Source: Dichotomocladium elegans (lineage: Eukaryota > Mucoromycota > Mucoromycetes > Mucorales > Lichtheimiaceae). Taken from it: a DNA stretch of 64,000 bases. A model generated the notes under the pieces. It saw nothing but the letters and a program-made list of their open reading frames with translations. It did no database searches and was not told where the DNA came from. This document shows positions 246-42,271 of the stretch, one piece after another; positions within the stretch are counted from its first letter, which is position 1, and each line of letters opens with the position of its first letter. The stretch lies in NCBI GenBank assembly GCA_025716815.1, contig JAIXMN010000036.1, positions 248,001 through 312,000 on the forward strand, in the 5' to 3' direction. Position numbers and translations under genes: made by a program.

Positions 246-3200
246 ATGACCATTATGACCGAATCAGAGCAGGTCAAAGCCATTCTCGATAAACTCGACC
301 AAACCATTCACTCGGACGAAAATCGGCGTCTCATGAGCAATGATCAGGTACGGCCAAAACAGCAGCTTGCCTCTTCAGTTCATCTCACGCACATAAGTTT
401 CCGATGGGGGGGAATAACAGCAACTCATGTGGAAAGATATCGCCTCCGCCATCTCCACGCTGCTTACCCTTGCGCCTCACCTTCTCAGCTCTCACGAAGA
501 TAATCAGATCCTCTTGATGGATTTAGTTGGTGCTTCGTCCTTACTTGCGTCGATCGTCCACTCCCTTGGAAAGCAGCGCAGTCGCGCCATTCAGTCTGAG
601 GCTGACGCTATCCTCATGACTGTCCGTCAGATCCAATATTCCATCACAAAGCAACACCAGCCTACAAAGGCATCTCCGTCCATGCCCCTAGCGTTGGATG
701 CCAAGGCATGTGAATGCGGCAAGGATTGAAACAGTCTTTTAACTTTTTTTCTTTCTCTTTCTCTCTGTCTTATTTAGTCCATACATTCATCCCTCATTGC
801 ACATGCCAAGCTGCTCGTAGATGGATTGCTCATGATTCCATTTTCAAGCAGGCTCTCGTCGGATTTCTCCCAGACGCGAGGTAGACAAAACACATTGTTG
901 ACAAGTGAGAGACAATTTTAGGCTTACTAGACGCTGAAAATTGCTAGAGGTAGATTGCATCTGGACACAGGTAGACCCACGGCCAAAAAAGTCTTCCAGC
1001 ACCGATATATTAATACGGTAAGGCAGTTCTCATTCGCCTCCTTTTTTATCAGTCGACTCTGATGGTTGTTGGCATGCAGTAGTGGCGGGAACAAAAGGAG
1101 GTCAACAGGAATGAGTATGTGAGCTATCTCTATGCATTTTTTTTTCTGTTTCTGTTGTTGAAGGGAACAGCGAGAAGACATTGGTACTAATAGGAGAAAA
1201 ATAAGTTGGCACTCGGTTCATGCGCACGCTATCGACTAGAAACAGCTCCGATAACAGTGGATCCTGGAGACCTCCTGTAACCCCCGAGGACCGTCCACAA
1301 CAACAGCTATCGTCTGCCACAAACGCTCTGAAGCTCCTCTTTGGCTCCACACGACCACGCGAAGGGGGTCTCATGCGCCATCAACGGCTCAGGCGAACAG
1401 CAAATGATAATTCCTCCTTTTCCTTTCCATCCTCCTCCCCGCAAGGAGACCACATACCATCGCCATCGTCATCTACTTTATATTTTACATCTAGCCCTTC
1501 AGCCGATGGTGGCCATGATCATGATATAAACTATGATAACACCGAGAAGGACACAAAGGGGCTCAGAACGATCATCTCATTGTCATCGTCAACGCCGTTA
1601 TCTGCTTTGGGAATACCAGTTGCGCGGACATGTGATCATTTACAGGCACGCTTGACAGGAAACCCGTCCTATTTTCAAGTTTGCAAGAATGACAGCGTGG
1701 TAATGGTATTGCAGGCAGGCCCAGCCACGGCAAGGGAAAAGTATATTGTCGTGGCCGGTACCACTACCGAACTTTTCTCAAAACTTCTTGACGATGCAAT
1801 CCAAGGCAATTCTTTTGCTATATAGATGTGTGTGCGTGTGCGTGTGTGTGTGACGGCAGAGCTAACACGTAATACGGTGAACAATAGATTTTGATTATAT
1901 CGATACCTACTTAATTACCCACAAACTCTTTACTTCCTCTTCCGTAAAACTCCTGGAGAATTTGACCGCACGCTTCAATTCTGACAAGGGCCATGGAGCC
2001 ATCCAACGCAGGCAAGTTGTCGCTCACGCATAAACATAGCAGAAACTGGTATCCGGACTTAAACCTCATATGCCTAAAAAAGGGTGATCAACGTTGTCAC
2101 GCGATGGACTAAGCTCCAGTTCGAAGATTTCAAGAAGGAGTGGCGCATGATGAAGCAATTGGATGACTTTCTTCTATGCGGGAACCAGGCTGGTTATCAG
2201 AAGGAAATGGAAACCATCCGCGACACAGTGGCGCGGCAAAGGACACGATTGACGGCTGTTTCTGCTTCTACTTCTGGAGCTGCATCCTTTGCTCCTGGGC
2301 TGATCACTCCCCCTGCATCGCCGGTCTCGATCAGCAGTTTCACCAGCAGCACAAGCAGTAGCGGCAGTAGTACGGTCATGCTCTCGTCCACTATATCTGT
2401 CCTATCGTGCTTAGATGCAATTGAGGTCGCGCAGTACCTCACTCTTGCTGATTTTACCTTGTTCAAGAATGTAACAGCTCACGAGTACCTATTTGGCAGC
2501 TGGCGACGTGGCGAAGCTGTTGGCAATGAGTTTGCGAAGATCCTGACAATGCGAGTTAACATGGTAGGGTTTCCTGTACCGCTGCCATCCTCTATTGCTT
2601 ACCTTTTTTTGTGTTTGTGTAAAGATATGCCATTGGGTCAAGCATGAGATATGCTGTGTAAAATTGGTTAAACAGAGGAGGGACATCCTTCGTAAATTAA
2701 TCCGTATTGCAAAAGTAAGTCTGGAGGAAAACGACAATTTAAAGTGTGTCTGATAAAACAAAAGTTGTGCATCGAATGGAAGAACTTCCACACAGCCATG
2801 GTCATCACCATGGCGCTGGAGTGTTCAACGATCCAGCGCCTTGATCACATCTGGCAAAATCTCTCGAGCCGTGATATTCAATCGTTTCAGCAGCTGAAGC
2901 GTTACATGGACGTTAGCAATAACATGCACCACTATCGACGCGCCTTCGATCAAGCGGTAGGCACATCGTCGGCGGTGATGCCGTTTTTCCCCCTAGTCCT
3001 CAAGGATCTCACATTCTTCATGGACGGGAACCCAACCGTGCTCCCTCATCAACCACCACTCATTAACTTCGATAAATGCCGCGAACTCACGCGATTCCTC
3101 TCACGCCTTGCTAACTACGCAAGTGTCGACTATTGGTTCGCCTCTGATTTAGACCACTTCCCGTTCCTCCCTCATGTGTCCCCAACCCGACCCCCACGAT

Positions 3201-3319
3201 GCCAGCCTCCCACACGTTTTGCTCCTTTGGATCGCGTTGCCGAGTTAATCGAGAGTAAGATTCAGTCCGTCCAAACATGCCATCAGGATCGAAAATGTCC
3301 GCACGTCGATCAGCACTAG
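246..3319 (+). CDS. Ras guanine-nucleotide exchange factor (RasGEF)
   Basis: Multi-exon gene for a RasGEF that should load GTP onto a Ras-family GTPase at the membrane. The start at 246 (MTIMTESEQ) opens an acidic helical N-terminal exon that splices at about 348 into one beginning near 425. A Ser-rich linker lies at about 1220-1600. A RasGEF_N (REM) domain is split over exons near 1570-2140; it includes TELFSKLLDDAI, the 1900-2000 exon reading LLENLTARF, and INVVTRWTKLQFEDF. The catalytic CDC25-homology domain follows from about 2395 (DAIEVAQYLTLADFTLFKNV) through WKNFHTAMVITMALECS to SPFFPLVL-like sequence and LTFFMDGNP near 3000. The last exon ends at 3319. No SH3 domain was seen. The family is clear; which Ras it serves is not. 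Exact small exons between 720 and 1220 are uncertain. Confidence 0.85.
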
Positions 3320-8538: not shown

Positions 8539-10738
8539 ACCCACCCATCCCTCCACGCACGTTCGAGACAAAAAAAAAACGTGCACAGAGAACGCTTGTA
8601 AAGCATATCCTATCTTTTTTGTTGTATAACTAACTTGTCATGACGGGCGTTCCCTCTCTCTATCTTACCGCTTCGCGCGCCCCAAAAAACCCCCCCCTCT
8701 CTCTGTTTTCCTCCCCACAAGCCTCCTTTTTTTTCTACTTGTTGCACTTTTGCCGTTTACTACTTATCCTTGCACAGCGTTTATAGAGTGGTTCCGTCTC
8801 CACACTCAAGCAATACCCATACTCATACGCGACAGCGTTTTGTTCTTTGACAGTAATAGGAAAAAAACGACTGTGTGTTGGCATCAATTGTATATATACA
8901 TTGCGTGTGTGTATGTGTGTGTGTGAATATATAAATATAGGCCTGTGTGCGTGTGACTTGTGAAGACTCCAGAGAACAAAAGCCCGAGCGTTTTGGAAGT
9001 AGGATCATATCGTTCGCCATCAAAAATAGAACCCGGAGGGGGAGGGGAGAGAAGCGAATGGCGTAGGTAGACAAAAGGTGGACCAGATGTCGTACGAAAA
9101 TATGAAATCGTTGCGCACGTAGGATGGCTATAAAGAAAGACAATGTCAACAGAAACCATATGCTCCCCCGGCCCCGTAGAAAAGAAGATGGTTTGTACCA
9201 CGCAGCGGTAACAATAGGCCTTTTTGGTGTATATCTCTAGCGGCCTCCAAAATGCTATGTAGACGTCTGCAGCATGAAACGGAGGCGAGGAAGAAAGAAC
9301 GTATCTGCGTAGCTGATCACGTGTCGCCGTACTAACTATTGGACAATTATCGTCGGTCTAAGCCTCACTTGACAACTGTCCATTGGGGGCCGATTATTAT
9401 CATTATCCTCAGACAACCACAAAGATTTGGCCACCTGTTTTTCATATTGACATGATCCATACCGGGCCATTTGCAAAATTACACTCGTATCATCATTCGT
9501 GGGTCTTGTCTCTCTATCTGATAAAGACCACTCGCTTCGAGAACTCGCGATTGATGTCGTCGGTAGCAGTACCTTGCCTCAAAAATTGTTTTGACTTCAG
9601 AGGGATACAATGATGAAAGAAATTAATTATCAAAACTTATAAATCCGCCCCTTTTTACATATGCACACATATTCATATACCACACTTCTTTTTTTTTTTT
9701 TTAAGAAAAGCCCATCGTTCACCAAGTTGTCCACTCGAGGGCCAATAACCAGCTGATCCACTATCTCAAACCTAATATGTAACATCGAGGGTATGTATTA
9801 GTTTCATTGAGCAAGCGTTTGTTACGTACCGTGTCAAGGCGAAATCAAATATCACTGCATTTCAAATCAAGAAATAACGGCCCTTGGGGATATGCACCAG
9901 ACGAGGGTAGGGAATACGATTTTTTTCAAGAGCGAGGTGACACAGGCAAAATACTCTATCTCGTGTTTGGGGGATGCTGTCATGGAGGAAGAGCGGTAAA
10001 AATCAGAAGAGGTCCATTAGTACTCATTGTCTGTACATGTTGGCATACCGCCTTTTTCAAAACTATGCTTAACCACATATGCCATCAAGCAAAGAGTAGA
10101 AAAAAAAAAGGACAGTGCGAAGAATAAACTTATTAATACCTCTTTTTTTTTGACCAAGGATGAGATGGTTGACCTGCACCATTGCTCGAAGTCATGGAAC
10201 TGCAATATCCGAGGTAAAGGGTTCTGATCAAGTGCTTACGTTCCCCATCATACTAGGCTCACCTTCATTATTAATCTGAGAAAAAAGTAGGATCAACGTA
10301 CCCCCGGGAAGCCACAGATGCAGCGCATTCTTTGAAAACTCTGTAGGTGCATAAATACAAGCTGCATGCGCGCGCGCGCGCGTCTCTCTCAATAGGAGGG
10401 TTCACAAGCAAGACAAAGACGTACGTACGTACTGGAATCGAGAATATGGCAGTTTGTCTGGATATACCAGCAGCATCTGCAGCTCAAACCGAGGCCCATG
10501 ATCCCGAAAAGGCGCTTGCTGCTGGTGCTCGATCTGTTTTATATAATCAAACCAAGGTATAAATGTAGCGCAATGTAAGACTGCTGCAGAGGCAATGGCA
10601 ATAATGTCTCTCGAGGCACTACATACATTGCTTTGAATGTTTCATACTGAATCCCTGACCTGGTCCGCAAATTGATTTACTACTGGAGCAACTTTATTTC
10701 CTTCCGGAGTTTAACGGTTTTCCTCAAAAACACACTTT
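8539..10738. other. Long intergenic region, low complexity
   Basis: No supported gene. It contains a GT-rich tract (about 8903-8926), a poly-T run near 9687-9703, alternating GC (about 10369-10383) and a duplicated ACGT tract (about 10421-10431). Short frames at 9807-10127 and 10347-10562 lack recognisable domains. Confidence 0.5.
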
Positions 10739-10882
10739 ATATAGCCATTTTTCAAAATCAAAGTCGCACCCTGCCAGTTCTGAAGTCGCAGAATCGCAAA
10801 AATACAAATCGCATTTTTGCCCGGAAATCTTTACGCGTGATGACAAAGCAAAAGTCGCATACATGCACGGAAAGATGTCGCA
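10739..10882 (+). repeat. Left terminal region with repeated TCGCA motifs
   Basis: The terminal TAGCCATTTTTCAAAATC is followed by TCGCA motifs at 10764, 10786, 10794, 10809, 10855 and 10878. The inner segment CCGGAAATCTTTACGCGTG recurs with two changes near 50635-50653, where it also follows an AAGTCGCACCCT end. Repeated subterminal motifs of this kind often bind transposase; that function is inferred. Confidence 0.55.
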
Positions 10883-11597
10883 AATCCATCTCATCCTTAT
10901 GACTCTTTCTCTTTATAAACTTTTACATTTTGAAATGAGCAATCTATTATTTTACAACGATGGCCAAGGTCATGTCGCTGATGAGGAAATGTACTCACTT
11001 CAATCCGTTTGTTCTTACACTGAATATCTGCGTAGCATATCGTGCAAAGATAACTCTGAGTTTACTCTCTCACACATTCCCAAGCGAAAGGATACATACA
11101 TTCGGATGAAAGAAGCGGGGATCAATGGCAGTTACACAGCATACACTGATCAAGGCAAGGTCAGATGTTTCAAACTGGTGTTTGAGGAGGTATTGAGTGC
11201 ATCAGCTGCAGCAAAACAGCTAGGACTCCATGTTCGTTCAGCACAGCGATGGGCATTACAGTAAGAAAAGGACCCTGACAGCATTTTAAGAAACGTAGAA
11301 GCAGAGGGCCGATCGTGTATTCTCAATGAAGAGCATTTATTGTTCTAGAATGCAATTTTCGCTAAAAATAGCCGTACTCAAAAGAATCCTATATCGAGAA
11401 GACTAAGTTTATTCTTGGAAAGAACAAAGAACTATCAGAATGTGCTTGTCGCTTTTGTCAATGAGCCATTTAGCCTGGGGATTGTAAATCCGAAGCTGGT
11501 TATCAAATGGAATAATGAAGTAATGGCTTTCAGGAGACTCCTGTGTTCTCATTGTAATATTCAGAGAAATTATTCATTATGTACCTACACTTCCTGA
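10863..11597 (+). pseudogene. Decayed Tc1/mariner (IS630-like) transposase, N-terminal part
   Basis: An open stretch ending at 11264 encodes SYTAYTDQGKVRCFKLVFEE and then AAKQLGLHVRSAQRWALQ, a homeodomain-like helix-turn-helix of the Tc1/IS630 transposase type. A stop follows directly. The frame then continues in degenerate form (EKDPDSI, then a GRSCILNEEH segment matching the usual GRPRIL linker). No DDE catalytic core can be followed. The homologous remnant at 41400-42271 shares YTAYTDQ and SAQRWALQ and runs further toward a FQPV segment. The gene is therefore truncated and inactive. It sits upstream of the Fanzor, inside the same element. Confidence 0.7.
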
Positions 11598-11795
11598 ACG
11601 TATGGATAAGGATGACAGCAGTGTCGTGTTTTGTTGTGTTGTGAGAGACTGAGAGAGTACGAAAAGAAATACAATCTTCCTACACTACACAAGTGCCGGA
11701 TATGTGTCGGATTATTCTTGAGATGGTCTCTTGGAATTACTTGTTGGAATTGTTTGGGATTTCATTGTTGATTTCAGACCTCCCTCACGTCGATA

Positions 11796-11951
11796 CAGTG
11801 GCCGCCCGTTATAGTGATACCCTCGGTTCCAGGAAATCGCATCACTATAATGAATTAGAATAAGCCCTACCTGGCAATTTTGTCCTTCATAAAGTGTATC
11901 GCTATAACGAATTATCATTATGATGAATATCACTATAGCGAGCGGCCACTG
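11796..11951. mobile_element. 156-bp MITE, pogo/Tigger-like ends, TA target duplication
   Basis: The left end CAGTGGCCGCCCGTTATAGT and the right end, read inward, CAGTGGCCGCTCGCTATAGT agree at 22 of the first 24 bases. A TA flanks each side (11794-11795 and 11952-11953). The interior has no ORF and contains near-direct copies of a CTATAAYGAATTA motif. CAGTG termini with a TA duplication are typical of pogo/Tigger elements, so this is probably a non-autonomous derivative mobilised in trans. It lies between the dead transposase and the Fanzor gene, so it inserted into the larger element. Confidence 0.8.
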
Positions 11952-12196
11952 TAAAACCTCATTAAAGAACCCAGTGGGAAAAAGAAAAACACTGTGGAGA
12001 TGGATCATTGCTGACACTATAAATAGTGATGCTCAAGCAAACTGTCCCTTTCCATTATCCACATACAAAACTAGAGCCCATACAGCCTACAGAAAATAAC
12101 ACAGCACCACATTTACGGCTGAAAGGTAATACGGCCGCTTTCATACTCGGCTCTGCGATACTAAGAAATAATATACCCTAGGTCTTCACCCACCAA

Positions 12197-14395
12197 ATGG
12201 CCCAACCCCACCGCCCCGTCATTCCCGAAGGCATGCGCACTGGCCACAGCATTGACCGCACTGGCCGTATAATTGGGGTGAAATCGTCCATACGGGGCAT
12301 CGGCTGGCGACAGCAGTACCGTGAACGTCTGTATCAGTTGGTTGACCTTGTCCACAACACCACAACACAGGCGTACGCGTTCGCCAAATATATTTTCATC
12401 AACGAGGCAGCGCGCGATCCAACTTTTAACATCCAGGAAAACATCACGGAGAAGTTCTTTTCAGAAGTTTGGCTCTCCATGGTTAACAAAGCCGAACGCC
12501 GCACCCAAGGTGAAACTGTCCGCATCCGAGAACTAATTAATCGCCACAAGGATGAGTACCTTCGGATATCCGGATACGACAGGCCTGCGTTCCCTTATTC
12601 CCAGCAATGTTCTTCTTACGAAGGCACCAAGATTTATACTGCTTACGTGAATAATGTCCACATGCGGTTCGGGCAACACCTTCGGCGTGTCATCAATGTC
12701 ATCCTGAATCTTCGTCAGCGAAAAGCCGACCGCAAGCGAGAGTTAATCGCACAGGGCCTAAGCCCCGATCAAGTACACCAGGACCTTTATGAAACCATCA
12801 CCCGGCATGCCACAGGATTCAAGCTAGCAATTGCCCGTCGAGGTGTTTTGAGGGAAGACATTAATGCCGAACCTGGATTTCTTCGGGAAGCATACGATAT
12901 CCTACAACCTGTCTTAAACGCTTACCCCCGAAACCACCAATTCCAACACCAGAGTATCTATTACGACGCCAAGGCCAATCCTGTTAAGCATTTCAACGCC
13001 TTCTTCCAGCTTGCACGCGTTTGTCAACAGAACGGAATACGCGGATTCAACTGTTTTCCACTTTGTCGCTCGTGGTCACCATGCTACATGGAGATCGATA
13101 CGAAAATCCTTTGCTACCATATCCTGGGCTGCAAAATGGAATCCCACACAAGCAATATGGAGTACTGGAGACGTGTTGTAAACCTGGAATCAAGAGCTTT
13201 CAAACCCCAAGAATCCGAGCTGCTCCAATTCCGTGGGACTATTCACACTGACGGCGTCGGTGTTACTGTGTTCAAGAAGACAAATGGCCTTCAATCGGGT
13301 TTCGGACAGAGATTTGGCATCCAGAGCGAAGATATCGAATACGTCACCCCACAGATAGTCCGGAACGAAGACTATAGAGGACAATGGGTCACCATTGATC
13401 CTGGCAGAAGGGACCTGTTGTATTGCGTTCATGAGAACTCGTCACCCGACAACCACCAGACCTTCCGATATACAAAGCAGCTTCAAGATCATACACGGAA
13501 GACCAAACGGTACCGCAGACTCCGAGAACGACTCAAGTTAGAGCGACCCGAGGTCGCGTTGGCTGAGCAGAATCTATCTCAATTTCAAAGTCATACGCTT
13601 TCCGTGCCCAACTACGACGGATACCTCGCCGCCAAGAATCGGGTCTCTGTAGTTCTCAAGTCTTTCTACGCGACAACCACTACGAACCACCCGAACCCGC
13701 AATTTCTTTTTCGAAAACTTCGCCTGTCAGCGTTTTACAAGAAGCAGCAAGCAGATGAAAAGCTTCTCGACTCTTTGAATGCGAAGTTTGGCAGTAGGTC
13801 CGTTTTCGTGATGGGAAATTGGTCTGCGCCGCATACAAGATATCACGAGCCTATCCGTGGTGTCGGCTTCCGGCGGCTGTTGAAGAAGAACAATTGCAAT
13901 GTTTATTTGATCGACGAGTACAAGACAAGCAAGTGCTGCCCTGTATGTGACAATGAAAACCTTGCTACCTTTAAAATGGTTCCTAATCCACGCCCATATC
14001 GACGACCCGACAATCCGCTCACGATCTGCCATGGCCTGCTACGGTATGAAGGACGGGCATGTCGTGTTATATTTCCAAAAGATTATAATACAGTATTTTG
14101 ATGTTTCAATAGATGCACAAATCAAAACTGTACAGCAGGCATGGCAGAGGGTGTTTGTCAACCAAGGTTATGGAACCGGGATCTGGCGGCGGCTCTCAAC
14201 ATGCATCATATCCTCCGGGGTCTTCGGGAAGACGGTATCATCCCAGCAAGGTTCCAGAGAAGAAATGCTGCACAAGCATCCGCAGCTGGTGGAAGGCCAC
14301 ACTCACCTGAACCAGAGCAGCGCAGCGTGAGACTACGACGGGCAAGGCCAGGAATGCCACGAGGTGCACGCTCTGGCGGGTCGAGACGACCGTAA
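12197..14395 (+). CDS. Fanzor: eukaryotic TnpB-like RNA-guided DNA endonuclease, apparently intact
   Basis: Two exons (12197-14043 and 14113-14395) joined across a 69-bp GT-AG intron give 709 residues. The C-terminal half is a split RuvC nuclease with a zinc ribbon. RuvC-I is VTIDPGRRDL (Asp401). The RuvC-II-like Glu is in LIDEYKTSKCCPVC (Glu574), next to the ribbon as in Fanzor proteins rather than in the usual TnpB position. Zinc ligands are C581/C584 and, in CHGLLRC, C611/C617. RuvC-III is LWNRDLAAALNM (Asp639). The large N-terminal part should hold the WED/REC-like RNA and DNA binding regions, and an Arg-rich tail could be a nuclear signal. The start ATG sits in a good context (CACCAAATGG). 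The family cuts DNA guided by an RNA made from the element's 3' end. Activity here is inferred from the intact motifs. Confidence 0.9.
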
Positions 14396-14490
14396 CCCCA
14401 ACCAAGAATTTTCCGCGTCAGTTATCGCTGACGCACCCAGGATAACCACAGCCCTTCGGGGCAAGTCCCCCTTCCTTTGGAAGGACGGTG
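14396..14490 (+). ncRNA. Candidate Fanzor guide-RNA scaffold (omega/fRNA-like hairpins)
   Basis: Directly after the Fanzor stop are three strong hairpins. At 14415-14434 a perfect 7-bp stem GCGTCAG/CTGACGC encloses loop TTATCG. At 14451-14462 GCCC/GGGC encloses a TTCG tetraloop. At 14470-14484 CCTTCC/GGAAGG encloses TTT. The first two recur after Fanzor copy 2 with changes that keep pairing (see 38836-38877). TnpB guide RNAs are made from the 3' end of the gene plus its downstream flank, so the location fits. The ends of the RNA and the guide segment cannot be read from sequence alone. Confidence 0.55.
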
Positions 14491-14604
14491 TGTTGTAAGT
14501 CAACGGGATTGGAGAAGGCGTAGTGTTTTCTGCTGACTAACAGGGTTTCATCCATGGATGCGAAATCTTTTTACCTATTGATACGACAAATTTATATAAT
14601 TCTA

Positions 14605-14634
14605 TGCGACATTTATTTTTGAAAATAAAGTATA
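14605..14634. repeat. Right terminal inverted repeat of composite element copy 1
   Basis: TGCGACATTTATTTTTGAAA leads on to ATAAAGTATA. Its reverse complement matches the right end of copy 2 (38725-38745) over the core TATTTTCAAAAATAAAT and resembles the left end at 10739. Confidence 0.6.
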
Positions 14635-14640
14635 GCCATA

Positions 14641-17600
14641 CGTAATATGATACTTTATTAACTTTTAACCGTCGCCGTCCACAAGATGGATGCTATCTCT
14701 GTTTGATGTGTTTTTTTTTCTTCCAAGTCATTCCACTCTACCGGTCAAAGTTCATCGGTAGGTCACCTTCCTCCTTCACGGGAAGAGGGATCTAACGTCG
14801 ACTCGGGTACAGTAAGAACTTCCATGACTTTTTGCTCTTACCTCAACACTTGAATGTATACATCATCTTTCAGCCAAGTCCGGCAATGGATTATTGGCTG
14901 GGTGTGTTGCGATGGTGTAAATTTAATGATAATCCAAGCAAAGTGGTATCCGTTCGCAGTACCGGCAATATTACACTTTCGCAATGACAGTGTATACATA
15001 ATAGATCGCAGTCCGCTTTTTGCCATCGTCAGCATTCGTGAAATCCGCGGATATCAGATCACCACCTTGTTTGAGTACTGTAAGTATAAAACAGAGTGGA
15101 CGATACCAGACAATGGTTCTGGTGTTATGGAAGAAGCTTTAGTAAGATATATTACTGTTTGTAAGTTGACATTTGGGTAATGGATTGCAGCTCAATGCTT
15201 CTTAAGACGGAATGATCATTTTTTGGCCATCGTTTTCACACACACACACACACACGGTAGGTAACCCTTTTGTGCGAGTTTAAAAAACCGATACACCTTC
15301 TGAACGTATTGTAGCACGCTATGATTAGTTCCTAAATCGGACCCATGTTTTTTTAGCCAGACCACGTCAATGTCTTTCATTCCCTGTGAACAGCCGGCTA
15401 TTTTGCAAGTCAATGAGGGTCTAAAAGAAGCATTTAGGAATGTAAACTGCTAAGCGGCCCCTACCAATTTACAGTAGCAAGGAAGATATAAGCTACTGCC
15501 TCTTAACACACATATATATATTATCTTATAAAAAGAATATATCAGGTTTTCGAAACATATAGTCCATTCACTTGTTTTTGTTCGATATGTGCAGCAGCGG
15601 GATAAACAGTAGTTAATATGTGCAATGCCTGCCGTGCGTTGCTCGGTCGCGCAAGTTAAACGTGCACAGACACAGACACAAACACGCACTCAGACTCCCA
15701 CACAGAGCGAGACGCCATTGTGGATATGTGCACAGATAATATTGTAAACTCCCTATTTCTACTCAAACCATGGGTACAATCCTTCCACCTAATGCAGATA
15801 CGTAGCACAGTAGAACAAAAAAAAAACGATCAAAGGGATTGGCGTGTGCTCTAGAGTGCTTCCACGTACTGTATATATCAAATTGGATGGAATTCCTCTT
15901 AAATGTGAGTGATTTGCACATCTGGAAATGTATCCATCATTGTTGCGCGTTCAACAAACAACATACTTGTGAACTGTAAGGTCGTACAACTTAAAGGTGG
16001 TACCAGCCTCATTATTTGCTATTAAAAGCACTCGGATCGTCTTACCAATCGTTTCCATCGGAGAAAGAAGCAGGTGATGAAAGTTTTTATCTCCTCTCCA
16101 CCCCCCATGACTGAGATCATTCACCGACCGGGTGGACTCTTCTTTTTCTTTTTCGGTACAAACCTTATTGCAACACTCAAAAAAGTGAGGGTACACATCG
16201 CCCTATGAAAAAGAAAAAAAGAGCTCGTGATGATACTTCATGAAAGCGTTGCGATTTGATTCTTTTCTATCCTCCATATACTAGCAAGTCTCTATATGCA
16301 TTAATGTGAAGGATTAGGGATAGATGCGTTGTGTGCGTGTTTACATCTTGTATCTGCAGTTATTGTGATTTACCTTCGTTTATTCAACACGAATCTTAGT
16401 TTAGAATCACTTCGGGTTATTGATGAGCCAGCATAGCTCTGTCGTCGTAGTTTACTTTTTAATATCACCTACGTATAAATCATGCAAGTGGCCATTTCTA
16501 TGATAAAGTATCAGAGTAAGGGTAAGATGTATTTGGTTCGGGATATTTTTTGCTCCCAAAATGGCCCGTGATAATACGATTGTCCCACGGAAGAAAGACT
16601 ATCCCAGGTGATTTGGCCATTGTGTCTGTATTGCGTCGGCTGTAACGTTACCTGATCATCTGTGGCAGAATTTCACAAGGGTGCACGCACGGTCCACTGG
16701 TAAAATCATTATTGATTGGATTGATAGGATATATGCATATCACCGAAGACAGTGAACGTTTGGTTGAACAATAACCTACTTGTTCAATCTACCATATGCG
16801 ATTCTGCTGCTATCGTAGTAGTTGATTGTCAACAGTATGTGCGTACGTGCATGTGCTGGCAAACGCAAAGTATAAAAGAATAAATAAAGTCTCTCTTTTC
16901 CTATTGGTTGAAAAAGACAATCAATGCTCTGATCACCGAACAATGCGATTTAGTAACGTTCATCGTGGCCTATCGTCTTCTCTTCCAATGTTGATCGCAT
17001 CCCCTATCAGCGTCACAACACACTTTTGAAATATATTATATATATCTTTGATGCCTATCTGCACGGCGCAACTCCCCCTCCGGATATATGCATGGTGGGT
17101 GGCGTGTCGAATATTTAGGAGGGGCATGTCCTTGAGAGAGGGCGTGTGCATATATATGAAATCACGTTTCACGCTCTATACACCGTATAAATTCCATCTG
17201 CGCACTCGACACGGTCATTCCCACAATATAAGGGCTGCCTGGCATGTGCATGTTTCCCGGCGATATAATCCCACCAACCAATTAGGTTTACTGTAGTCAT
17301 ACCAGCAAGTTTTCACTGCTGCCACATAGCGATAGCAGCTTTTTTTTTGGGGGGGGGTGTTGTGCTTCTGGCAAGCTCTCTTTTATTTCTTGTGATACAG
17401 TCCCACGTTGTTTACACGGGTAAAAAATGTAACCACAGTCGGTTTCTCCCACGTGTTGTTTCACTCTCAGCATTCCGTCTAATAGAACCTGGCGGTTCCG
17501 CGTCTCGGTCTGTCTCTGATACGACGCAGATCTGTATAGCAGCTACCCACCAGCGTCTAAGCATGCTCAAGCTCTTGTTGGGAGCGTCGTTGTGTGAAGT

Positions 17601-20991: not shown

Positions 20992-22849
20992 ATGTCAGAA
21001 GGCACTCGCGTTACGGTTGAACCGGATGTCCAGCAGGAGACCGGAAAGAATGTCCCCGAATCACCCGATTATCTGCGTTTGATTCTGACGTCGCGTGTCT
21101 ACGACATTGTCAAAGAAACGCCATTGCAGGAAGCTGTCAATCTCAATGCAAAGATCAACCATCCGAGCGGCGCTAAAGTTTATTTAAAGCGCGAGGATCT
21201 GCAGCCGGTATTTTCATTCAAGATTCGCGGCGCGTACAACAAGGTTGCGCATCTGACGGCAGCGGAAAAAGCAGCAGGTGTCATTGCCTGCTCAGCTGGT
21301 AAGCGTCTCTCCCCCTTCCCCAAACAAGCAAACAAACTTAGCATGCTGTTTGTGACCCAGGCAACCATGCACAAGGCGTAGCCATGGCGGCTCAGAAGCT
21401 CGGTATAAAGGCGAAGATTGTGATGCCTGCCGCATGTCCTGCGATCAAGTGGCGCAATGTCAAACGGCTGGGGGCGGAAGTTATTCTTCACGGAAGTGAT
21501 TTTGACGAGGCGAAGAAGGAGTGCGTACGGCTGATGGAAGCTGAGGGATTGACCAATATTCCACCTTACGATGATCCCTACGTGATTGCGGGTCAGGGCA
21601 CGATCGGCTTGGAGGTGTTGCGGCAGCATGATGTGAATGATATCGAGGCAGTCTACATCTGTGTGGGTGGTGGTGGTCTGATTGCGGGTATTGGTTCGTA
21701 CATCAAACGGATTGCACCTCACATCAAGATCATCGCCGTCGAGGCAAATGACGCGAATGCAATGACCATCAGTCTCGAGAAGTCGACGCGGGTGGAGCTA
21801 CAGGAGGTGGGCCTCTTTGCGGACGGCGCGGCGGTGCGCATTGTTGGCGAGGAAAACTTTCGCATTGCGCGCCAGGTGGTGGATGAGGTTATCAATGTGA
21901 CGAATGACGAGATCTGCGCTGGGATCAAGGATGTGTTTGAGGATACCCGGTCGATTTGCGAGCCGACCGGCGCCTTGGCCCTTGCGGGCGCGAAAAAGTA
22001 TCTCGCGACGCACCCGGGTGCCAAGGGCGCGCACGTGGCGATCGTCTCGGGTGCGAACGTCAACTTTGATCGCCTGCGCTTCATTAGCGAGCGTGCCGAG
22101 CTCGGTGAGCAGACCGAGGCATTCTGCAACGTCATCATCCCCGAGCGGCCCGGGAGCTTCATGCGCATGATCGAGGCGGTCATGCCGCGCGATATCACCG
22201 AGTTTTCCTACCGCTATGCGGACCCAGAAAAGGCGCGTATCTATATCAGTTTCAAGGTCCAAAATCTCGCAGAGGAATCTAAAGAGGTCATCCAACACTG
22301 GTGCGAGAATGGAATGGAGGCCTGGGACGTAAGTCACAATGAACTGGCAAAGACGCATGCCCGTTATATGATGGGAGGAGGCGGACGTGGGCGTCCACCG
22401 AAACACGAACGGGTCTTTCGATTCGGTAGGTGTTTTAACTGGGAAATAGAGGCGCCAAAGCATAGAGCGATCTCAATGGACACAGCGAGCTAACTCGGTC
22501 AAACACATATATACAGTTTTTCCTGAACGGCCTGGTGCTCTTTTGCGCTTCTTGAAAGGTCTCCGGTCTTCGTGGAATATCTCATTATTCAATTACCGAA
22601 ATCATGGTGATGGTAAGTTAAGTTTGGTGGGGGGTGGGGGGAAAGGAAAGAGAGGTGCTTCCACCCCCCCACCTTTATATATATATATATATAAAGCTAA
22701 TGGGAATTGTGACAGATATGGGCAAGGTCTTGGTTGGTGTTCAGGTGCCCCCAGAAGATAATGAAGCATTCAACGAGTTCTTAAGACAGTTAAATTACTT
22801 CCACGTGGAAGAGACAGACAACATTGTATACAAGACATTCCTGCAGTAG
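20992..22849 (+). CDS. ILV1: Biosynthetic threonine deaminase (threonine ammonia-lyase)
   Basis: Four exons (20992-21298, 21361-22425, 22517-22612, 22716-22849) give 533 residues. The enzyme converts threonine to 2-oxobutanoate with PLP, the first step of isoleucine synthesis. SFKIRGAYN carries the PLP lysine; [10 protein letters not shown] spans the first splice; VGGGGLIAG is the phosphate-binding loop. Two C-terminal ACT-like regulatory domains begin with [10 protein letters not shown] and with [13 protein letters not shown], as in the feedback-inhibited yeast and bacterial enzymes. The ATG at 20992 starts a sequence without a mitochondrial presequence ([12 protein letters not shown]), unlike yeast Ilv1. 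Either an upstream exon is missed or targeting differs. The main exon is GC-rich relative to its neighbours and has long antisense frames, which are shadows. Confidence 0.95.
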
Positions 22850-25997: not shown

Positions 25998-26936
25998 ATG
26001 AGTGTGGATCGCCTTGCTGAACTTTCCCGACCAGACCCCGTGCACAACCCTGTCCCCACCAGCAGTGGCGGCGGCGGCGGCGTATACGAGATGCGACCCT
26101 TGCTGGCTACCCAGTCCGACCCGAACTCTATGAAGGATTTTCTGGACGAGGTCTCCCATATTCAGGAGACTATACGGAACATCAATGAAAACATCAGCCG
26201 GATCCAGGACAAGCAGTCCAGTATGCTTCAAGCAGCGGACGGACGAGAGGAGAGCCGTATCCGCGCTGAACTGGACGACCTGAATGCAGACACCCAGCGC
26301 AAGATGGAGCATGTCAAGCACAAGATTAAGGAGATTGAGCCAACGTCGCGTCATTCGGATCTCGCGGTGCGTAAGAATCAGTTTGCCAACGTGACAAAGT
26401 CCTTCCTCGACACGATTTCCCGCCATCGCCAGGTGGCTGTGGATTTCCAGAAAGCCGAGTCTCGGCAATACGAGCGCCAGATCCGTGTTGTTAATCCCAA
26501 TGCCACGCCCGAAGAAATCCAGCAGGCGATTGCTCAGGCAGAGGAAGGGCGCCCGGCCGTGTTCTCTCAACAGCTGATGCAGTCAATGACGAACGAACAG
26601 CGACGGTACGACGGCCGTCAGGCCCTCGATGCTGTCCAGGAACGCCACGAGGATATTCGCCGTCTCGCGCGGAGCGTGGAAGAGCTCTCCAACCTGTTCA
26701 CCGAGATGCAATTTTTGCTGGAGAACCAGGGGAAGGTCCTCGCTCAGATCGAGGAGTCGTCTTACCAGGTAACCCAGGATCTTGAGAAGGGCAACGGTGA
26801 GCTCACCCAGGCCGTCACGCTCGCGCGTTCCACGCGAAAGAAGAAGTGGATCTGCTTCGGTATCTTCGTGGCCATCATCATTATTGTGGTGATCGTCGTT
26901 GTCACCCAGGTCGTCCCGAAAAATCAATCTAATTGA
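25998..26936 (+). CDS. Plasma-membrane syntaxin (Qa-SNARE), Sso1/2-like
   Basis: Intronless ORF of 312 residues. A short flexible N terminus with a poly-Gly run is followed by the three-helix Habc domain (about 45-165) and the SNARE motif (about 215-275), which starts ERHEDIRRLARSVEELSNLF. The central glutamine of the zero layer is in LLENQGKV. A basic juxtamembrane stretch (RKKK) leads to a single C-terminal transmembrane helix (about 290-306, rich in Ile and Val) with a short luminal tail. This is the layout of Sso1/2 and mammalian syntaxin 1, which drive exocytic fusion with a SNAP-25-like partner and synaptobrevin. The absence of introns is unusual in this window. Confidence 0.93.
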   Translation: MSVDRLAELSRPDPVHNPVPTSSGGGGGVYEMRPLLATQSDPNSMKDFLDEVSHIQETIRNINENISRIQDKQSSMLQAADGREESRIRAELDDLNADTQRKMEHVKHKIKEIEPTSRHSDLAVRKNQFANVTKSFLDTISRHRQVAVDFQKAESRQYERQIRVVNPNATPEEIQQAIAQAEEGRPAVFSQQLMQSMTNEQRRYDGRQALDAVQERHEDIRRLARSVEELSNLFTEMQFLLENQGKVLAQIEESSYQVTQDLEKGNGELTQAVTLARSTRKKKWICFGIFVAIIIIVVIVVVTQVVPKNQSN

Positions 26937-33424: not shown

Positions 33425-35177
33425 TTATTCTTTGTTTTCCTGCTGATTGCGTGCCACCATTGCTGCAAGCGCGCCTCCAATACCATTACCATCCCTTGTG
33501 ATCTAAATGCAGCAACAATAAGTATACTCTTTTTTTTTTTCTTTAAGGATATAACTTACGCCAATATTGATGCGGTCAACATTATGGCCGTAAAGATCAC
33601 GAAGGGCCTCATTGACACGGTTAGGAAAGTTGGGATAGTGCTCATAAATGTTTCCCTCTACACCTTTTAACAAACAATCCACCCACCCGCATTAGTTTGG
33701 TCCCCACATGTTTCTTTTTCCTGATCCTTACTGATGGTCAATCCGGCTTCCAGAGCATTTCGTTTGTCGATCACTGCGCTGATGGCTGCTGCGACCAGTC
33801 GAGCGGCGCGCTGGCCAACCAGCTGACAGATGCGCTTGACGACGCGACGGTCGTGCAGCGTGGTGGTTGGCAAGTTGAGGATCGACTCAAGGATATGCTT
33901 GGTGTCGTCAAGCTCCTGGGTATCATCTGACTCGATCGCGCTCATGTACGACGCCTCAAAAAAGTAGGGCGTGTTGAGCTCGTTGCTGGTCTGGGTCTCG
34001 AAGATCAAGCGTCGGTCGGCGAAATCGACGAGGATATTCCTGGCAATCTCGCCGAGGTAAAGGCCCGACACCATCTTTTCGAAAATGTGGACGCCGGGGT
34101 TGAACGATTCGCGGTTGACGCGGTTGTCGTAAAGCGTCCGGGGGAGATAGGACGGATTCGTATCGCCGAACGAGCCCCACTCGGTGTTGATGATCATGTC
34201 TCCTTCGGAACCGTCGCCGCACACCGATGCGCATTTGGTGATATTCGACATCTTTTCCCAATACGCTGCGTTCGTGCCTGTGCTTACGGTGCAAGACAGA
34301 AGCGTATCCAGGCTGCGATAGCTGTGTGCCAGTAAGCAGCCGACTTTTTTCCCCCAAACACAAAAGTGAATAGCGTTTGGTGAGTCCACCACACACCCAA
34401 AAAGAAAAAAAAACGTTTGTGGGGTATATCTTTTATACCTGCACCGTTGCATACTGCTTCCACGGTCACGGGGATGTGGCGCCGTCTGAGAGAGGTCTGC
34501 AAAAATTCGACAATGTTCTTGCCTTCAGCACCTGTGATCATGAAATCCTTTGTCCACTTTTGAACAGACGCCTTTGAAAGCGTTGTCTGCACAAGCGGGA
34601 AAGACAGAACCACACCAAGGCTAATCGTGCCGCTGTGGTCTGGCTGATATCCAACAAACGATAAGAACGAGTCGACCGAGATTGCAAAATAATCGACCAA
34701 CTCGTTGAAGGAACCCTTCTTGAGATGATCATGGATCGGATATTTTTGTTGCCGGGTGGTGATTCTGCCTTGGCCATGGAGCTTCACGAGGTAAATGCGC
34801 ACAGACGTGCCTATGTTTTCGCAACCGCCGTGCAGGATGATAGAATAGGGTAAATGCGCCCATGAACAAAAAAAAAGCACGCACCCTTTGTTTTTTCTTT
34901 TCTTTTTTTTTCCCTCTCTGAGCAAACAAACACCCCCACCACCCACAGCAGGATCCTTACCACTTAACTCAAGGCCAATGTACTCGCCTTTCTCTTGCCC
35001 GGTCGGGTGATGACAGATCCACGACGGCAGCATAGGCATGTTCGCCCCGTCTTGCACCAAGCCAAGATCCATCTCTTCGCGAAGGTGGTGCGCCATACGC
35101 TTGACTGTGTCGGTCGAGAGGGTGAAGTCGCGTGTGAGCTCGTCGATGGCCTCTTCGACACTTTGTTTTTCTATCAT
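33425..35177 (-). CDS. Hexokinase-family protein, probably catalytically inactive
   Basis: Reverse-strand gene with an ATG at 35177 (MIEKQSVEEAIDEL) and a stop at 33425. It covers the whole hexokinase fold: SFPLVQTTLS near the sugar site, WTKDF, STGTNAAYWEKM, NTEWGSFGD (sugar-binding Glu kept), IFEKMVSGLYLGEI, GQRAARLVAA and a C-terminal TRDGNGIGGALAAM. Two catalytic motifs are altered. The phosphate-1 loop, normally LDLGGTNFRV, reads LELSGTSVRI. The catalytic-base motif, normally VNDTVGT, reads CNGAVGC after splicing at about 34434/34345, so the catalytic Asp is Gly. Loss of this Asp should abolish phosphorylation, as in the inactive regulatory hexokinase homologues of Aspergillus. A role in sugar sensing or protease control is inferred. 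The acceptor of that intron is poor (AAAAAAG). Confidence 0.85.
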
Positions 35178-35531
35178 GGCCGCGAGCGTGAATAATAAAA
35201 AAAATAAAGAGGAAAGAAAAAGGGCTGAATTCTCTCGTTCGGGGTCCCATGCATTAATCAGACCACACAAATGCTCCGACCATTTTGCAAGGCTTTCTTC
35301 ATCCATCCCACTTCGCGCCACTCTCCCGGTTCGGTCATTTCCCGCCACCGATACACACCCTAAATACGGTCCTACTACGCCCCCCCTCCTTTTTTTTTCA
35401 TCCATGACGCGCCAAAGCGGGGAGGGGGGCCGGGCTGTTCTTTCTTGTCATAGCAGCAGCAGCAGCGTCTCTTTAATTTTTTACATTGCACATCTCACTT
35501 GGACCTAGAGCAATGACACTTTTATATTCTG

Positions 35532-38309: not shown

Positions 38310-38724
38310 TGCTGGTATAGAGAAGACACAAGAAAGATGCGTGATGGCAGAAATAAGAAGAGCAGCCGATTCTGTGCGTGTCTGAACACAGAGAGAGAGA
38401 GAAAGCGCGGGTGGTATGCCCTATACACAACACCTTTTTTTTTTCCCAAAATCACGCAAGTCGGGCATGCCCTCGCCCCGCCCGCTCCGCACTCCCACCC
38501 CCCCCCACAGGAAGTCGGTCCGGGCAGAGGACAAAAATAGAAAATTCTTGCGCGCGCAACTAAAAATCCCCCTCGGTAAAACGTCCATTTGCTCGGGAGG
38601 CTCATTCTATGGGGCCTACGTCTTGCTACAGAGAGACAGCATGTGCAGACATCATGACAATCTCCTTAACTCCAGGCTGACCTTCGATGCAGCTTATATT
38701 CGGCATAGTGATGAGCAGCATTGT
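38310..38724. other. Intergenic region between VPS9 and transposon copy 2
   Basis: No gene. It has runs of T and C near 38431-38510. Confidence 0.5.
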
Positions 38725-38775
38725 ACTGTATTTTCAAAAATAAATTTCGGCAAGTGGGGAAAAATTATGTCGCAT
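38725..38775. repeat. Right terminal repeat of composite element copy 2
   Basis: TACTGTATTTTCAAAAATAA begins at 38727, followed by a TGTCGCATAAAT segment at about 38771. The core is identical to the right end of copy 1 over about 15 bases. Confidence 0.6.
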
Positions 38776-38835
38776 AAATGGCGTATCAAGATGGTAGTCA
38801 CCAGAAAATAGTATCCTTTCCCCAACACTTGAACT

Positions 38836-38877
38836 TACCCCGAAGGTATCCAGATGTGTGCCAGCGATAACCGACAC
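38836..38877 (-). ncRNA. Hairpin pair downstream of Fanzor copy 2 (guide-RNA scaffold relic)
   Basis: On the minus strand the first hairpin is GTGTCGG/CTGGCAC around TTATCG (38877-38858), and the second is TACC/GGTA around TTCGG (38848-38836). Relative to copy 1, stem pair C-G becomes T-A, one T-A becomes T-G and one A-T becomes G-T, so all seven pairs can still form. The TTATCG loop and the TTCGGGG(C/T)AAGT stretch are kept. Confidence 0.5.
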
Positions 38878-38884
38878 GGATAAT

Positions 38885-41081
38885 CATCCGCTGTTGGCGA
38901 CCTCGTCCTGGTCCTCTCCGTCTCACCCTTCGCTCGTTGGGCTCTGGTGATCTAGCCCTTCTTGCTAGACGCCTGTCACCCACCTGCAGGTGCTCGCCGA
39001 AACCTTTCCGGGACCATGCCATCGGCAAGAAAACCCCTGAGAAGATGTATCATATTCAGGCATGCCGTCATATCACGGTCCCATAATCGCTGTCGAGGAG
39101 CGCCCTCTGCCATGTCTGCTGTACAGCTTTGATTTAAGCATCTGCACAGAATAAACGACATTAGATTATCAAACTCTTCCGCGAATAAGGGCATCATACT
39201 GTAGCAGGCCATGACAGATAACGTTTGGATTCTCGGCTCTTGGATAGGGGCGTGGATGGGGTATCCTCCGGAACGTAGAAAGGCTCTCGGTCTCGCATGC
39301 GGGGAGGGGGGCAACATCTGTTGGTCTTGAATTCGTCGATCAAGTATACATCAAAGCGACGTTCGCCTTGCTTGAGAAGTCGTCGGAATCCAATATCCAC
39401 GGATTGGCTCGTGGTATCGAGTGTTCGGGGCAGACCAATTACCCATCACAAAATACCGCGTGGGGGCCCAAACTTGTTGATCAGACTGTCCCTCAGCTTT
39501 TCATTCTGCTCATTGTTTGTTGATGTAACGGCGACAGACGGAGCTTTCGGAAAAGAGGTTGGGGGATCGGCATTATGGGTGGCGGTATTCGCGTACAAGT
39601 CCTCGAGAACTTGGGACACTTGGGACCGGACAAGCAGGGAAGCGGTCCTAATCGGCACGATCCAAGCTGCTGGAATGCTCGCCAGCCATGCGTGCCTCAG
39701 GCATGCACGACTTTAGGTTCCTCATTCTTGAGCCACTGCAACAACCTGCGGTACTTGTTGGTCTTGCGCACCTTGTCCTGACGAGGTTTGGTGTATCGGA
39801 ACGACAGACGGGGCACCTTGCTCCGGCCTGGAATTCTCTGAGACGCAGAAAAGGAGGTCCCTCCTCCCAGGGTCGACGGTGACGCACCTACCAGCAATAT
39901 TCTGGTGTTCCTGTAATGTCAGCATGCTGACATAATTGGTCTCATCCCCGACCCCTCGGTACTTTGCTCCGTATGATGGTCATTGATTGTTTCGTCCTCC
40001 TGAAAGCAGTGACGCCTACTCCATTGGTATGGATTGTGCCATGGAACTCGATCTTTCCGCCTTCTTGGGTGTCTGAAAGCACGAGAGTTGAGGTCCACAA
40101 CCTCTCCCCACAGAGTCAACTTCTGGCTGATGTCGTGTCTTGGCCTCTTTAGGATATGGTGGACAAGTATCGTGGTGTCGATCTGCATAGAGCAAGGGGC
40201 CCAGGATCGACCAAGAGGAAAACATTGGAAGCTGCGAAGACCATTGCGTTGAAAAACATAGGCGAGCTCTATGAACGGCCAGAAGTGGCTGGCTGGCTGA
40301 ACGCGCCTTGGCGTCGTAGTGGATGCTTTGTTTTTTTTGAACTTGGTACCCTTGAAGCATCCAAGACCGGTTGGATCTGGTCGAACGCTTGGCCTGAAGA
40401 AAGCCGGTTCCGCCGGAATGTCATCCCTCCGCACACCTCGGCGGGGGCAATGGCGAGTGACGGTATCGTAACTATCCTGGCGGATTTGCTCCTCGGTCCA
40501 GCTGAGTGCGTCCAGTTCACGTCTCCTCGCTGCTTTCCGCACTCGAATGTTCAGGAGAGCATTCACCGCGCGCCGAAGGAGTTGCCCCAACCGCATGTTG
40601 ATAGTGTTGCAGTATGCAACAAACATCGTCTTACCTTCGAACGCAGAGCATTGCTGGGATTACTTGAGCTGTTGCCGTTGGTACTGGGTGGCTTCGAGGT
40701 AATCCTCCAAAAACTCGCCGATCAGAGCTCGGCACTCGCCGGAAACCCCCCCCCGGGGGGGTTTGGACGAACTCGCTTGTCAAGCATGGAGAGAGCCACA
40801 CCTCCGAGAAGAACCTTTTCCTTCAGGAACTGTTTGGAGGTTGAAGTCCGGTTTCGCGTTAGCGCGCTTCCGTAGGAAGATGTACTTGGCGAAGCCGTAG
40901 GCATGGGTTGTTGTCGCATGGACATCAACGACCAAGTCCATCAACGGTTGGCGATAGGCAGGGTTCCAGCGGATGTCTCGTATAGAGGTCTTGTCACTCA
41001 ACATACGGTCAGGGAGGCCTGAGGTTGGGTTCGACAGGGTTTACGCCCCCTCCTCCTGGTGGGGTCGACAAGTTGTTCCAT
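38885..41081 (-). pseudogene. Fanzor pseudogene (copy 2), several frameshifts
   Basis: Homologous along its length to the intact copy but broken into at least five frames. Recognisable parts are TTTHAYGFAKYIFLRKRANA, the MRLGQLLRRAVNALLNIRVR region, WAPCSMQIDT, RuvC-I VTVDPGRRDLLFC, IDEFKTNRCCP, and RuvC-III LWDRDMTACLNM. One frameshift is in a C-rich run inside the zinc ribbon (about 39302-39312). The intron before RuvC-III is at the same position as in copy 1: CATGGCCTGCTACA, then GTATG...GCAG, then ATGCTTAAATCAAAGC. The copies have diverged substantially, so this is not a recent duplication. A C-rich/G-rich palindrome at 40747-40761 interrupts the N-terminal half. Confidence 0.88.
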
Positions 41082-41399
41082 GTCTTCACCAGTAGCGGAC
41101 TGTGGTATTATCTCTTTAGCACAAAATCTTCCAGTCATGTCTTATTCCAAAAGACTTGCCGTCTAATGTCGGAATGTGCTTTTGTGTTCTTCGCCTTGGG
41201 TTGTATGAGTTGTTGAGAGATGTGTATTACGCGTGTGTGTTTGTAACCGGTTTAGAATTCGCAAGTGGTAAAGAAAACGGCTTGGTCGAACCTCATTATT
41301 TTATAGTAAATCAAGGTCCCCGTTCCAACACTGCATGTATGAAGTGCATATCATATGATAAGGCTTTTGATGGATATTGATCCGTGCTAGAAAGAACTT

Positions 41400-42271
41400 G
41401 GCCGGTTTCACATCACTATCCCCGATATCATGAAACTAAGACGATGATGCATTTGATACATTGATATTTTCATATCCGCTTGCATGACAGGACAATCGCA
41501 CCTATCAAAGGTACCTCCTCCATCTAGGATCCATCACTGGACTTGAAGAGGACAATGAAAAGAGCATGCTCTCATTCAATACGTCCTAACAGTATCAAGC
41601 ACTTATGCCGCCGATCTAATAGAATTATTATAAAAGAGAGATATTTTATTTTCAGGAATAAACATCTACCTCAAAGGTTCTTTTCTAGTTGTCTTTTTCA
41701 CTATTTTCTCTTACTCATCCATCACACTGTCTACGGGTTGAAACCGAGCCATTTTCAATGACAAGTTGCATTCGTTTTAGATACTTTGAGACCCTCAAGT
41801 CTTGGAAGCAGTTGCTCCATCAGCTGCTCTAGGACAATAGATGGATTCTCATCCATGCATTCAAAAATAACGCTCTTCACTGAGAATACGCGAACGACCT
41901 GCTCGCTTTAGGTTTCTTAAAGACGCTGTCAAGGTCCTTCTCGTACTGTAATGCCCATCGCTGGGCTGAACAAACATGGACTCCAAACGGTTTTTTCAGC
42001 AGCTGTAAGCACTCAATACCTTCTCAAACTCCCGTATGAAAAATCTGATCTTGTCTTGGTCAGTGTACGCTGTGTAATTGCGCTTATTTCTGCATTCTTT
42101 CGCTTGGGGAATGTGTGCGGTAGTATGGTCAGAGATATCTCTGCAAGATATGGTCCATAGGCTCAGGACAGTCATGCTTAACAACAACATGTCATTGTCC
42201 ATCAGTTCAAAAGGATGAATGCGTATGGAACGAAAAGGACCCCATAGGTTGCCGAGCATTGTGAACGACAT
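41400..42271 (-). pseudogene. Decayed Tc1/mariner (IS630-like) transposase of copy 2
   Basis: A frame near 42271-42000 contains NYTAYTDQDKIRFF and FEKVLSAYSC, followed after a stop by GVHVCSAQRWALQYEKDLDS. These match the remnant at 10863-11300. Further on, a degenerate stretch (about 41760 downward) reads ARFQPVDS and FIPENK, matching the FQPV and FLDES region that leads to the catalytic core in this family. Multiple stops make it non-functional. Confidence 0.65.

Follow-up and report, generated by a model that had tools for sequence, protein, structure and literature searches.

Fanzor1 proteins and the transposons that carry them

Fanzors are eukaryotic cousins of the CRISPR nucleases. Fanzor1 genes in Tc/mariner elements that have TA repeats, some of them lacking a transposase, were described in 2013 (PMC3627910), and the presence of TIR and TSD sequences inside Fanzor1 guide RNAs in 2023 (PMC10711439). 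PGv-1, PUl-1 and PUl-4 have mariner-type ends and TA repeats and hold a Fanzor, which a transposase may or may not accompany (PMC3627910). Spu-1 resembles the Dichotomocladium elegans element described here in its terminal inverted repeats, its TA repeats and a dinucleotide conserved upstream of the left TA, and its omegaRNA, like our candidate, lies between the stop codon and the right end; it holds a Fanzor1, and no transposase was found between its repeats (PMC10432273, PMC3627910). Unlike Spu-1, the D. elegans element shows a transposase remnant, and intact transposases are present elsewhere in the genome. SpuFz1 is encoded by one uninterrupted ORF whereas the D. elegans gene has an intron, and SpuFz1 is more distant from the D. 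elegans protein than is PpFz1, the closest solved homologue (PDB 9cf0-9cf3). PpFz1, whose host belongs to the Mucorales as does D. elegans, is homologous over nearly the full length, with similar active-site motifs and a similar zinc ribbon, and its TAM, 5'-ATN, fits the ATA just before the D. elegans element (PMC11423790). Unlike the D. elegans protein, PpFz1 has a RuvC insertion (FRI) of about 100 aa that binds cyclophilin; in the alignments the gap falls where residue 506/504 of our query meets residue 1001/1095 of the PpFz1 chain. The omegaRNA of PpFz1 is given as 75 nt, whereas the conserved block of the D. elegans element is 224 nt in the window and 268 nt in most copies. The TnpB proteins of IS200/IS605 and IS607 also have the RuvC triad and the zinc ribbon; they take their guide from the right-end flank and a role in retention has been proposed for them (PMC10711439, PMC10432273). 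Compared to TnpB, the D. elegans Fanzor has a larger REC region, a partner transposase of the DDE type, and an intron, and the rearranged glutamate (E574 here) sets Fanzor apart from TnpB, save for one IS607 TnpB lineage (PMC10711439).

The window analysed here is a stretch of 64,000 nucleotides of the genome of D. elegans, a mould of the Lichtheimiaceae (contig JAIXMN010000036.1, positions 248,001 to 312,000). A threonine dehydratase exon in it has 100% identity, at 94% coverage, to a D. elegans protein. Fanzor1 in Tc/mariner elements is already known and the D. elegans element belongs there; what is added is a family-wide selection test, a covarying 3' hairpin that is linked genome-wide to the gene, and a difference between subfamilies in the flank. 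The family is a natural experiment, with dozens of close copies, a transposase gene of its own that is dead, intact ones at other loci, ghost elements that keep the hairpin and lack the nuclease, and motifs that differ between subfamilies, and because the copies have different flanks their predicted guides differ as well. If it is active, this family gives Mucorales Fanzors without the cyclophilin-binding insertion. A literature search on transposition in D. elegans found no paper. No such selection test on a Fanzor was found among the papers searched; a search for Fanzor together with purifying selection gave one paper, which by its title and abstract is on PGBD5.

The Fanzor1 gene and its product

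The original prediction was that positions 12197 to 14395 hold an intact, spliced Fanzor gene in a fungal transposon, and this is borne out by a 709-aa frame, by matches in the PDB, and by transposon ends that have many copies. Exon 1 (12197-14043, plus strand) encodes D401, E574 and the first two zinc Cys, and when it is joined to exon 2 (14113-14395, plus strand), which encodes the last two zinc Cys, D639 and a basic tail, 709 residues are obtained and then a stop codon. The catalytic and zinc residues were found at the positions claimed for them: D401 in IDPGRRD, E574 in IDEYKTS and D639 in NRD for RuvC, and C581, C584, C617 and C622 for the zinc ribbon. The DPG at 401-403 follows RuvC-I, and the rearranged E574 adjoins Cys581/584 of the zinc ribbon. 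The closest relative in the PDB is Parasitella parasitica PpFz1 (E=8e-129) and the next is Spizellomyces punctatus SpuFz1 (E=9e-51). As had been expected of an alignment to known Fanzors, the triad falls on the catalytic residues of SpuFz1, D401/E574/D639 aligning with D383/E541/D606 (active-site residues of SpuFz1 and Fanzor1 are given in PMC11423790 and PMC10432273). E574 and D639 meet chain residues 935 and 1000, which by a hand count stand at a constant offset of 394 from SpuFz1 E541 and D606, and D401 falls on the first D of IDPNKRD, the motif that holds D383 and N385 of SpuFz1. The expectation that Fanzor/TnpB profiles would recognise the protein held in part. A profile of 15 sequences (A3) matched PpFz1 at 1.9e-268, SpuFz1 at 1.1e-99 and GtFz1 at 6e-19, the homology spanning the whole length for PpFz1 and SpuFz1 and only a part for GtFz1. 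General HMMs detect the protein poorly, with Pfam PF07282 giving 14.2 bits, below its cut-off of 26.3, and NCBIfam guided_TnpB giving 18.2, below its cut-off of 100. Judged by its sequence and by alignment to solved Fanzor1 structures, the product of 12197-14395 is a Fanzor1. None of its 61 protein matches was named D. elegans, some of them having no name, and the best identity was 47%, so the Fanzor genes of D. elegans appear to be unannotated.

The intron that had been placed at 14044-14112 (plus strand) was confirmed as a spliceosomal GT-AG intron of 69 nt, present in 29 of the 30 copies aligned there, the remaining copy, L021, breaking off. Within it a 5-nt deletion is found in six copies and 1-nt insertions in some, and the splice sites are altered in L011 (donor AT), L022 (donor GC) and L030 (acceptor AA). 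Although the reading is a genomic one, it is extremely unlikely that the gene is a pseudogene or the intron a misreading: 16 of the best 30 copies retain both the frame and the splice sites, and the intron position is kept in six divergent paralogs, where, as read by eye, a different GTAT...CAG intron lies at the same position. Precise loss of the intron was considered for L025, which has an open frame of 702 aa, and was rejected: the intron is present and indels keep the frame open. More divergent Fanzor families were seen at C47:329690, C37:627186, C24:1041543 and C46:1722371. They match the probe at 54-57%, and their open frames are 608-722 aa long; the match on C46 holds one TAG.

The element and its transposase

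The gene lies in a non-autonomous element, probably of Tc1/IS630 type, with imperfect terminal inverted repeats (about 10747-14630, plus strand). The left target-site repeat, TATAGCC (10740-10746), is found again as the same 7 nt on the right (14631-14637), both on the plus strand, whereas typical copies have TA. The right terminal inverted repeat (14611-14630, plus strand) is itself able to form a hairpin. Copies are about 97-98% identical from about 10736 to 14614 or beyond, and then have unrelated flanks. The right end reads AAAG followed by TA in all 42 matched right ends, a count that leaves out L092 and L101, whose right ends are unmatched. TA precedes the CACC-like start in 34 of 35 typical left ends and TG in one; left out of these 35 are L026 and L078, which have no left repeat, and five variant copies, in which the target repeat is 6-7 bp.

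The companion transposase was predicted to be broken, and it is. Positions 10863-11264 (plus strand) encode 133 aa of an IS630/Tc1 transposase, the N-terminal piece only; the DDE domain is absent from the window copy, and homology to the intact transposase ends near 11335. With no catalytic transposase domain the window copy must move in trans if it is moving. Two intact relatives of the transposase, L064 (C44:468100-470000) and L065 (C57:1662900-1664800), are 99.6% identical to each other over 1811 nt, and L064 carries DDE_3 (1.4e-30). They are about 75% identical to the element over the first 600 nt or so, with nothing beyond window position 11335. The 3' ends of the intact DDE_3 relatives were looked for and not found, and among the fetched loci there was no clean empty site. 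On C57 a 52% Fanzor lies downstream of L065 in the opposite, convergent orientation, so that the Fanzor 3' end would be internal there. Between the remnant and the Fanzor gene lies a MITE-like insertion (11794-11953) of 160 bp with inverted repeats of 26 nt, whose ends (TACAGTGGCCGCTCGTTATAG...) have at least 204 genome matches with up to 2 mismatches and none in the reversed control. It is carried by many copies of the burst and is absent from L023 and L024.

Copies of the family in the genome

All genome-wide counts given here are lower bounds. The 709-aa query had at least 109 matches in the genome, with 63 of 982 candidates scored, and probes for exon 2 and for RuvC-II had at least 150 each, a few of which are two pieces of one locus. 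PGv-1, PUl-1 and PUl-4 come from other hosts, whereas the present family shows a large burst in one genome. The broken second copy that had been reported in the window is real, though it is of another, more diverged subfamily. This second element (38724-42152, minus strand) is interrupted and consists of a transposase piece (42152-41727), Fanzor fragments (41007-38955) and a 3' block (38883-38724); the fragments were matched as pieces in overlapping frames with about 41% aa identity over the best piece. The open frame of the first gene had been singled out against this background of broken genes as a sign of recent activity or selection. A recent burst and family-wide selection are both indicated, but the gene is not a lone survivor among wrecks. 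Counting the window copy, 18 of the best 30 copies have an open full-length frame after splicing, in 16 of them with GT..AG, and 'intact' therefore mainly reflects the recent burst. In 17 of these 18 open copies D401 and E574 were either read directly or lie within a motif that is undamaged, and the D639 motif is intact in all, L025 being judged by its motifs. Among 40 right ends listed by way of their 3' DNA, at least five had no Fanzor exon-1 match and many genes were truncated.

The window copy is not the most typical of its family. Its V108, H194, C290, E331, V388 and N588 are absent from 12 young copies (L005-L016) in a comparison covering positions up to 615, its 3' block, at 224 nt, falls 44 nt short of the 268 nt seen most often, and its left terminal repeat is without CACC.

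Selection on Fanzor within the burst

Changes among copies were counted in a clean set of 25 copies, L021, L028, L029, L031 and L033 being left out as truncated or misaligned. In the Fanzor gene the ratio of replacement to silent changes (N:S) was 162:97 with 6 stops for changes private to one copy (omega 0.74), 23:31 for changes in 2-4 copies (omega 0.33) and 3:11 for changes in at least 5 copies (omega 0.12). In the transposase remnant of 24 copies, the corresponding figures were 43:24 with 2 stops, 17:10 and 9:0. Taking the shared changes together, Fanzor had 26N:42S and the remnant 26N:10S (p=0.002). Since the clean copies had been found by Fanzor similarity, the count was redone in those 21 copies whose right ends a search with 3' DNA had located as well (L004, L006, L019 and L024 dropped; the other 19 of the 40 places found by 3' DNA are truncated, gene-less or not fetched), a subset that lessens the sampling bias of Fanzor similarity and does not remove it. 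Here the shared Fanzor changes were 19N:37S (omega 0.23, p=5e-8) and those in the remnant, in 20 copies, 22N:7S (omega 1.14), a contrast with a Fisher p of 0.0005. In the 17 youngest copies the shared changes (7:12 in Fanzor against 4:1 in the remnant) show the same trend, which is not significant (p=0.14), and the private Fanzor changes, 39:44, are also short of replacements. From these counts we read purifying selection on Fanzor within the multiplying lineages and none on the remnant of the same copies.

An unlikely alternative is that Fanzor is an ordinary passenger in a recent Tc1 burst, open since the copies are young and useless to the element. The young copies are indeed about 98% alike, most private changes are near neutral (omega 0.74-0.75) and 12 of the best 30 copies are not open over their full length. 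What weighs against a passenger is that shared changes, expected to be older than the most recent copies, are strongly depleted of replacements in Fanzor and not in the remnant. In addition, across 19 young copies gaps affect 2 of 1847 columns in Fanzor exon 1, against 23 of 402 for the remnant and 145 of 529 for the stretch directly behind it, the choice of these copies by Fanzor similarity being a bias in this count.

The explanation that we consider probable is that this gene encodes a Fanzor1 RNA-guided endonuclease of a non-autonomous Tc1/IS630-type family and that it works as the retention mechanism proposes. Transposase from the intact relatives would move the element at TA sites, and the 3' block, if it behaves as in other Fanzors, would be transcribed through the right end so that the omegaRNA takes the 3' flank as its guide. 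By analogy with bacterial TnpB, Fanzor would then cut the site emptied by excision beside a TATA-like motif, and the element would be restored there by repair from a copy that still holds it. Retention of this kind would explain why multiplying lineages have an intact Fanzor and a decayed transposase.

The 3' block and its hairpin

The structured 3' block (14409-14630, plus strand), a candidate omegaRNA scaffold, starts 13 nt past the stop codon and is common to subfamilies that share no more than about 49-59% identity in their exon-2 pieces. It contains an 8-bp hairpin, H1 (14415-14434, plus strand), in which two pairs have compensatory changes. The H1 pairs are kept at 99.6% in 35 sequences, and the double-sided changes are C-G to U-A and A-U to G-C, with U-G and G-U intermediates. 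A shuffle test supports the number of cells with a double change, which 1 of 500 shuffles reached, but not the number of doubly changed pairs, which 88 of 500 reached, and the covariation comes for the most part from a single split between subfamilies. When 15 sequences were folded to a consensus, 14 of them being rows, or parts of rows, of the 35-sequence covariation set, H1 was recovered together with a closing stem that contains GGAGAA. The H1 pattern, with up to one mismatch, has at least 120 copies in the genome and none in the reversed control. For 78 of the 89 exact H1 sites listed, a match to Fanzor exon 2 stands 8-154 nt upstream in the same orientation. The spacing is exactly 21 nt in 52 of them, and the chance expectation is about 0.0006 for each site; conversely, an exact H1 is found within 300 nt after exon 2 in 79 of the 150 exon-2 matches listed. 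Copies differ in the length of the final 20-90 nt ahead of the right end, which is odd for a scaffold meant to abut the guide. A search of 10700-14700 against Rfam gave no match up to E=1. The predicted guide segment (14633-14652, plus strand) is placed by analogy with other Fanzor1s (PMC10711439). For the guide of the window copy no second genomic target with fewer than 3 mismatches was found; there were 2 sites at 3 mismatches, and the reversed control had 11 matches.

Ghost elements

Eleven of the exact H1 sites listed have no exon-2 match, and seven of them were fetched as ghost elements (L116-L121 and L123). Ghosts with both ends located measure about 1.2-1.3 kb. The seven are 82-98% alike over the aligned pieces, with a transposase piece and the hairpin. 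The left repeat was matched in five and the right in four. No Fanzor was found in them by tblastn; they retain only the last Fanzor codons, as seen by eye against the window's second copy. L122, which was fetched alongside them, is without the hairpin. L116 and L117 share 97.6% identity while their flanks differ, and have therefore probably been mobile of late. Selective conservation of the hairpin within the ghosts was not shown. Ghost loci without a Fanzor gene are known in S. punctatus, and a role in trans has been proposed there (PMC10432273). These ghosts raise the question whether Fanzor acts mainly in trans for related elements, that is, for ghosts and other subfamilies by way of many guides, and not for its own retention. 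The seven ghosts have the same kind of hairpin and no nuclease, and two of them were probably mobile lately, as such a role would have it. However, action purely in trans would not conserve the protein along multiplying lineages, and the hairpin of all seven ghosts is the B-type one or differs from it by one base, whereas the window protein is of A type. We hold a mainly trans-acting Fanzor to be quite unlikely and retention of its own element remains our preferred reading.

The left flank and the target motif

TATA precedes the CACC-like start in 33 of the 35 typical left ends. The two exceptions, GATA in L076 and TATG in L085, both have no Fanzor match nearby; L072 and L083 also have none, yet have TATA. 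In B-type left ends, found in 40 of 48 places, there are 25 CATA, 10 TATA and 5 others, so that the left motif in D. elegans is TATA in the A type and mostly CATA in the B type, and that of SpuFz1 is CATA. CATA is also found in L060, L064, L065, L116-L119 and L123, and TATA in L122. Left and right flanks show an asymmetry: at -6, A/T is found in 34 of 35 left and 18 of 42 right flanks (p=1e-7); at -4, T is found in 34 of 35 and 29 of 42 (p=0.002); and at -3, A is found in 35 of 35 and 37 of 42 (p=0.06). TAM selection was considered as the cause of this asymmetry and was not accepted, because two of the four copies without a nearby Fanzor match also have TATA; the left-flank pattern may be a transposase preference instead, and the L076 and L085 exceptions cut both ways on the origin of the motif. 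In S. punctatus a conserved CA before the left repeat matches the measured SpuFz1 TAM, CATA (PMC10432273), and the TAM of PpFz1 is 5'-ATN (PMC11423790), and by analogy with these we predict TATA as the target motif of this Fanzor.

Odd left ends

CACC is missing from five of 40 left ends (L004, L006, L017, L028 and L074), where its place is taken by the final 2-3 nt of a repeat that matches the copy's own right flank. These repeats are 6-7 bp long and read TATACC in three, TATAGC in one and TATAGCC in one, the window copy being among them (TATAGCC). When right flanks were shuffled among 23 copies, p was 0.0002 for the four odd ends there. For L074 the left end was used to predict the right flank, which agreed with the prediction once fetched, L164 being taken as the right end of L074 by strand and spacing. 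Each of the three TATACC cases might instead come from a single C-to-T change in TATACACC together with a chance match to the right flank. Another possibility is that the odd left ends arise by microhomology template switching during repair. This would suit a further view, which we consider rather doubtful, in which Fanzor is the engine of proliferation of a transposon family that has lost its own transposase, its RNA-guided breaks and their repair copying the element, and the odd left ends are the scars; the repair strand would then switch templates at 1-2 matching C bases with no joining by a transposase. The window also holds ordinary genes, namely RasGEF (2147-3319), threonine dehydratase (21384-22493), syntaxin/SNARE (25998-26936) and hexokinase (34284-35405).
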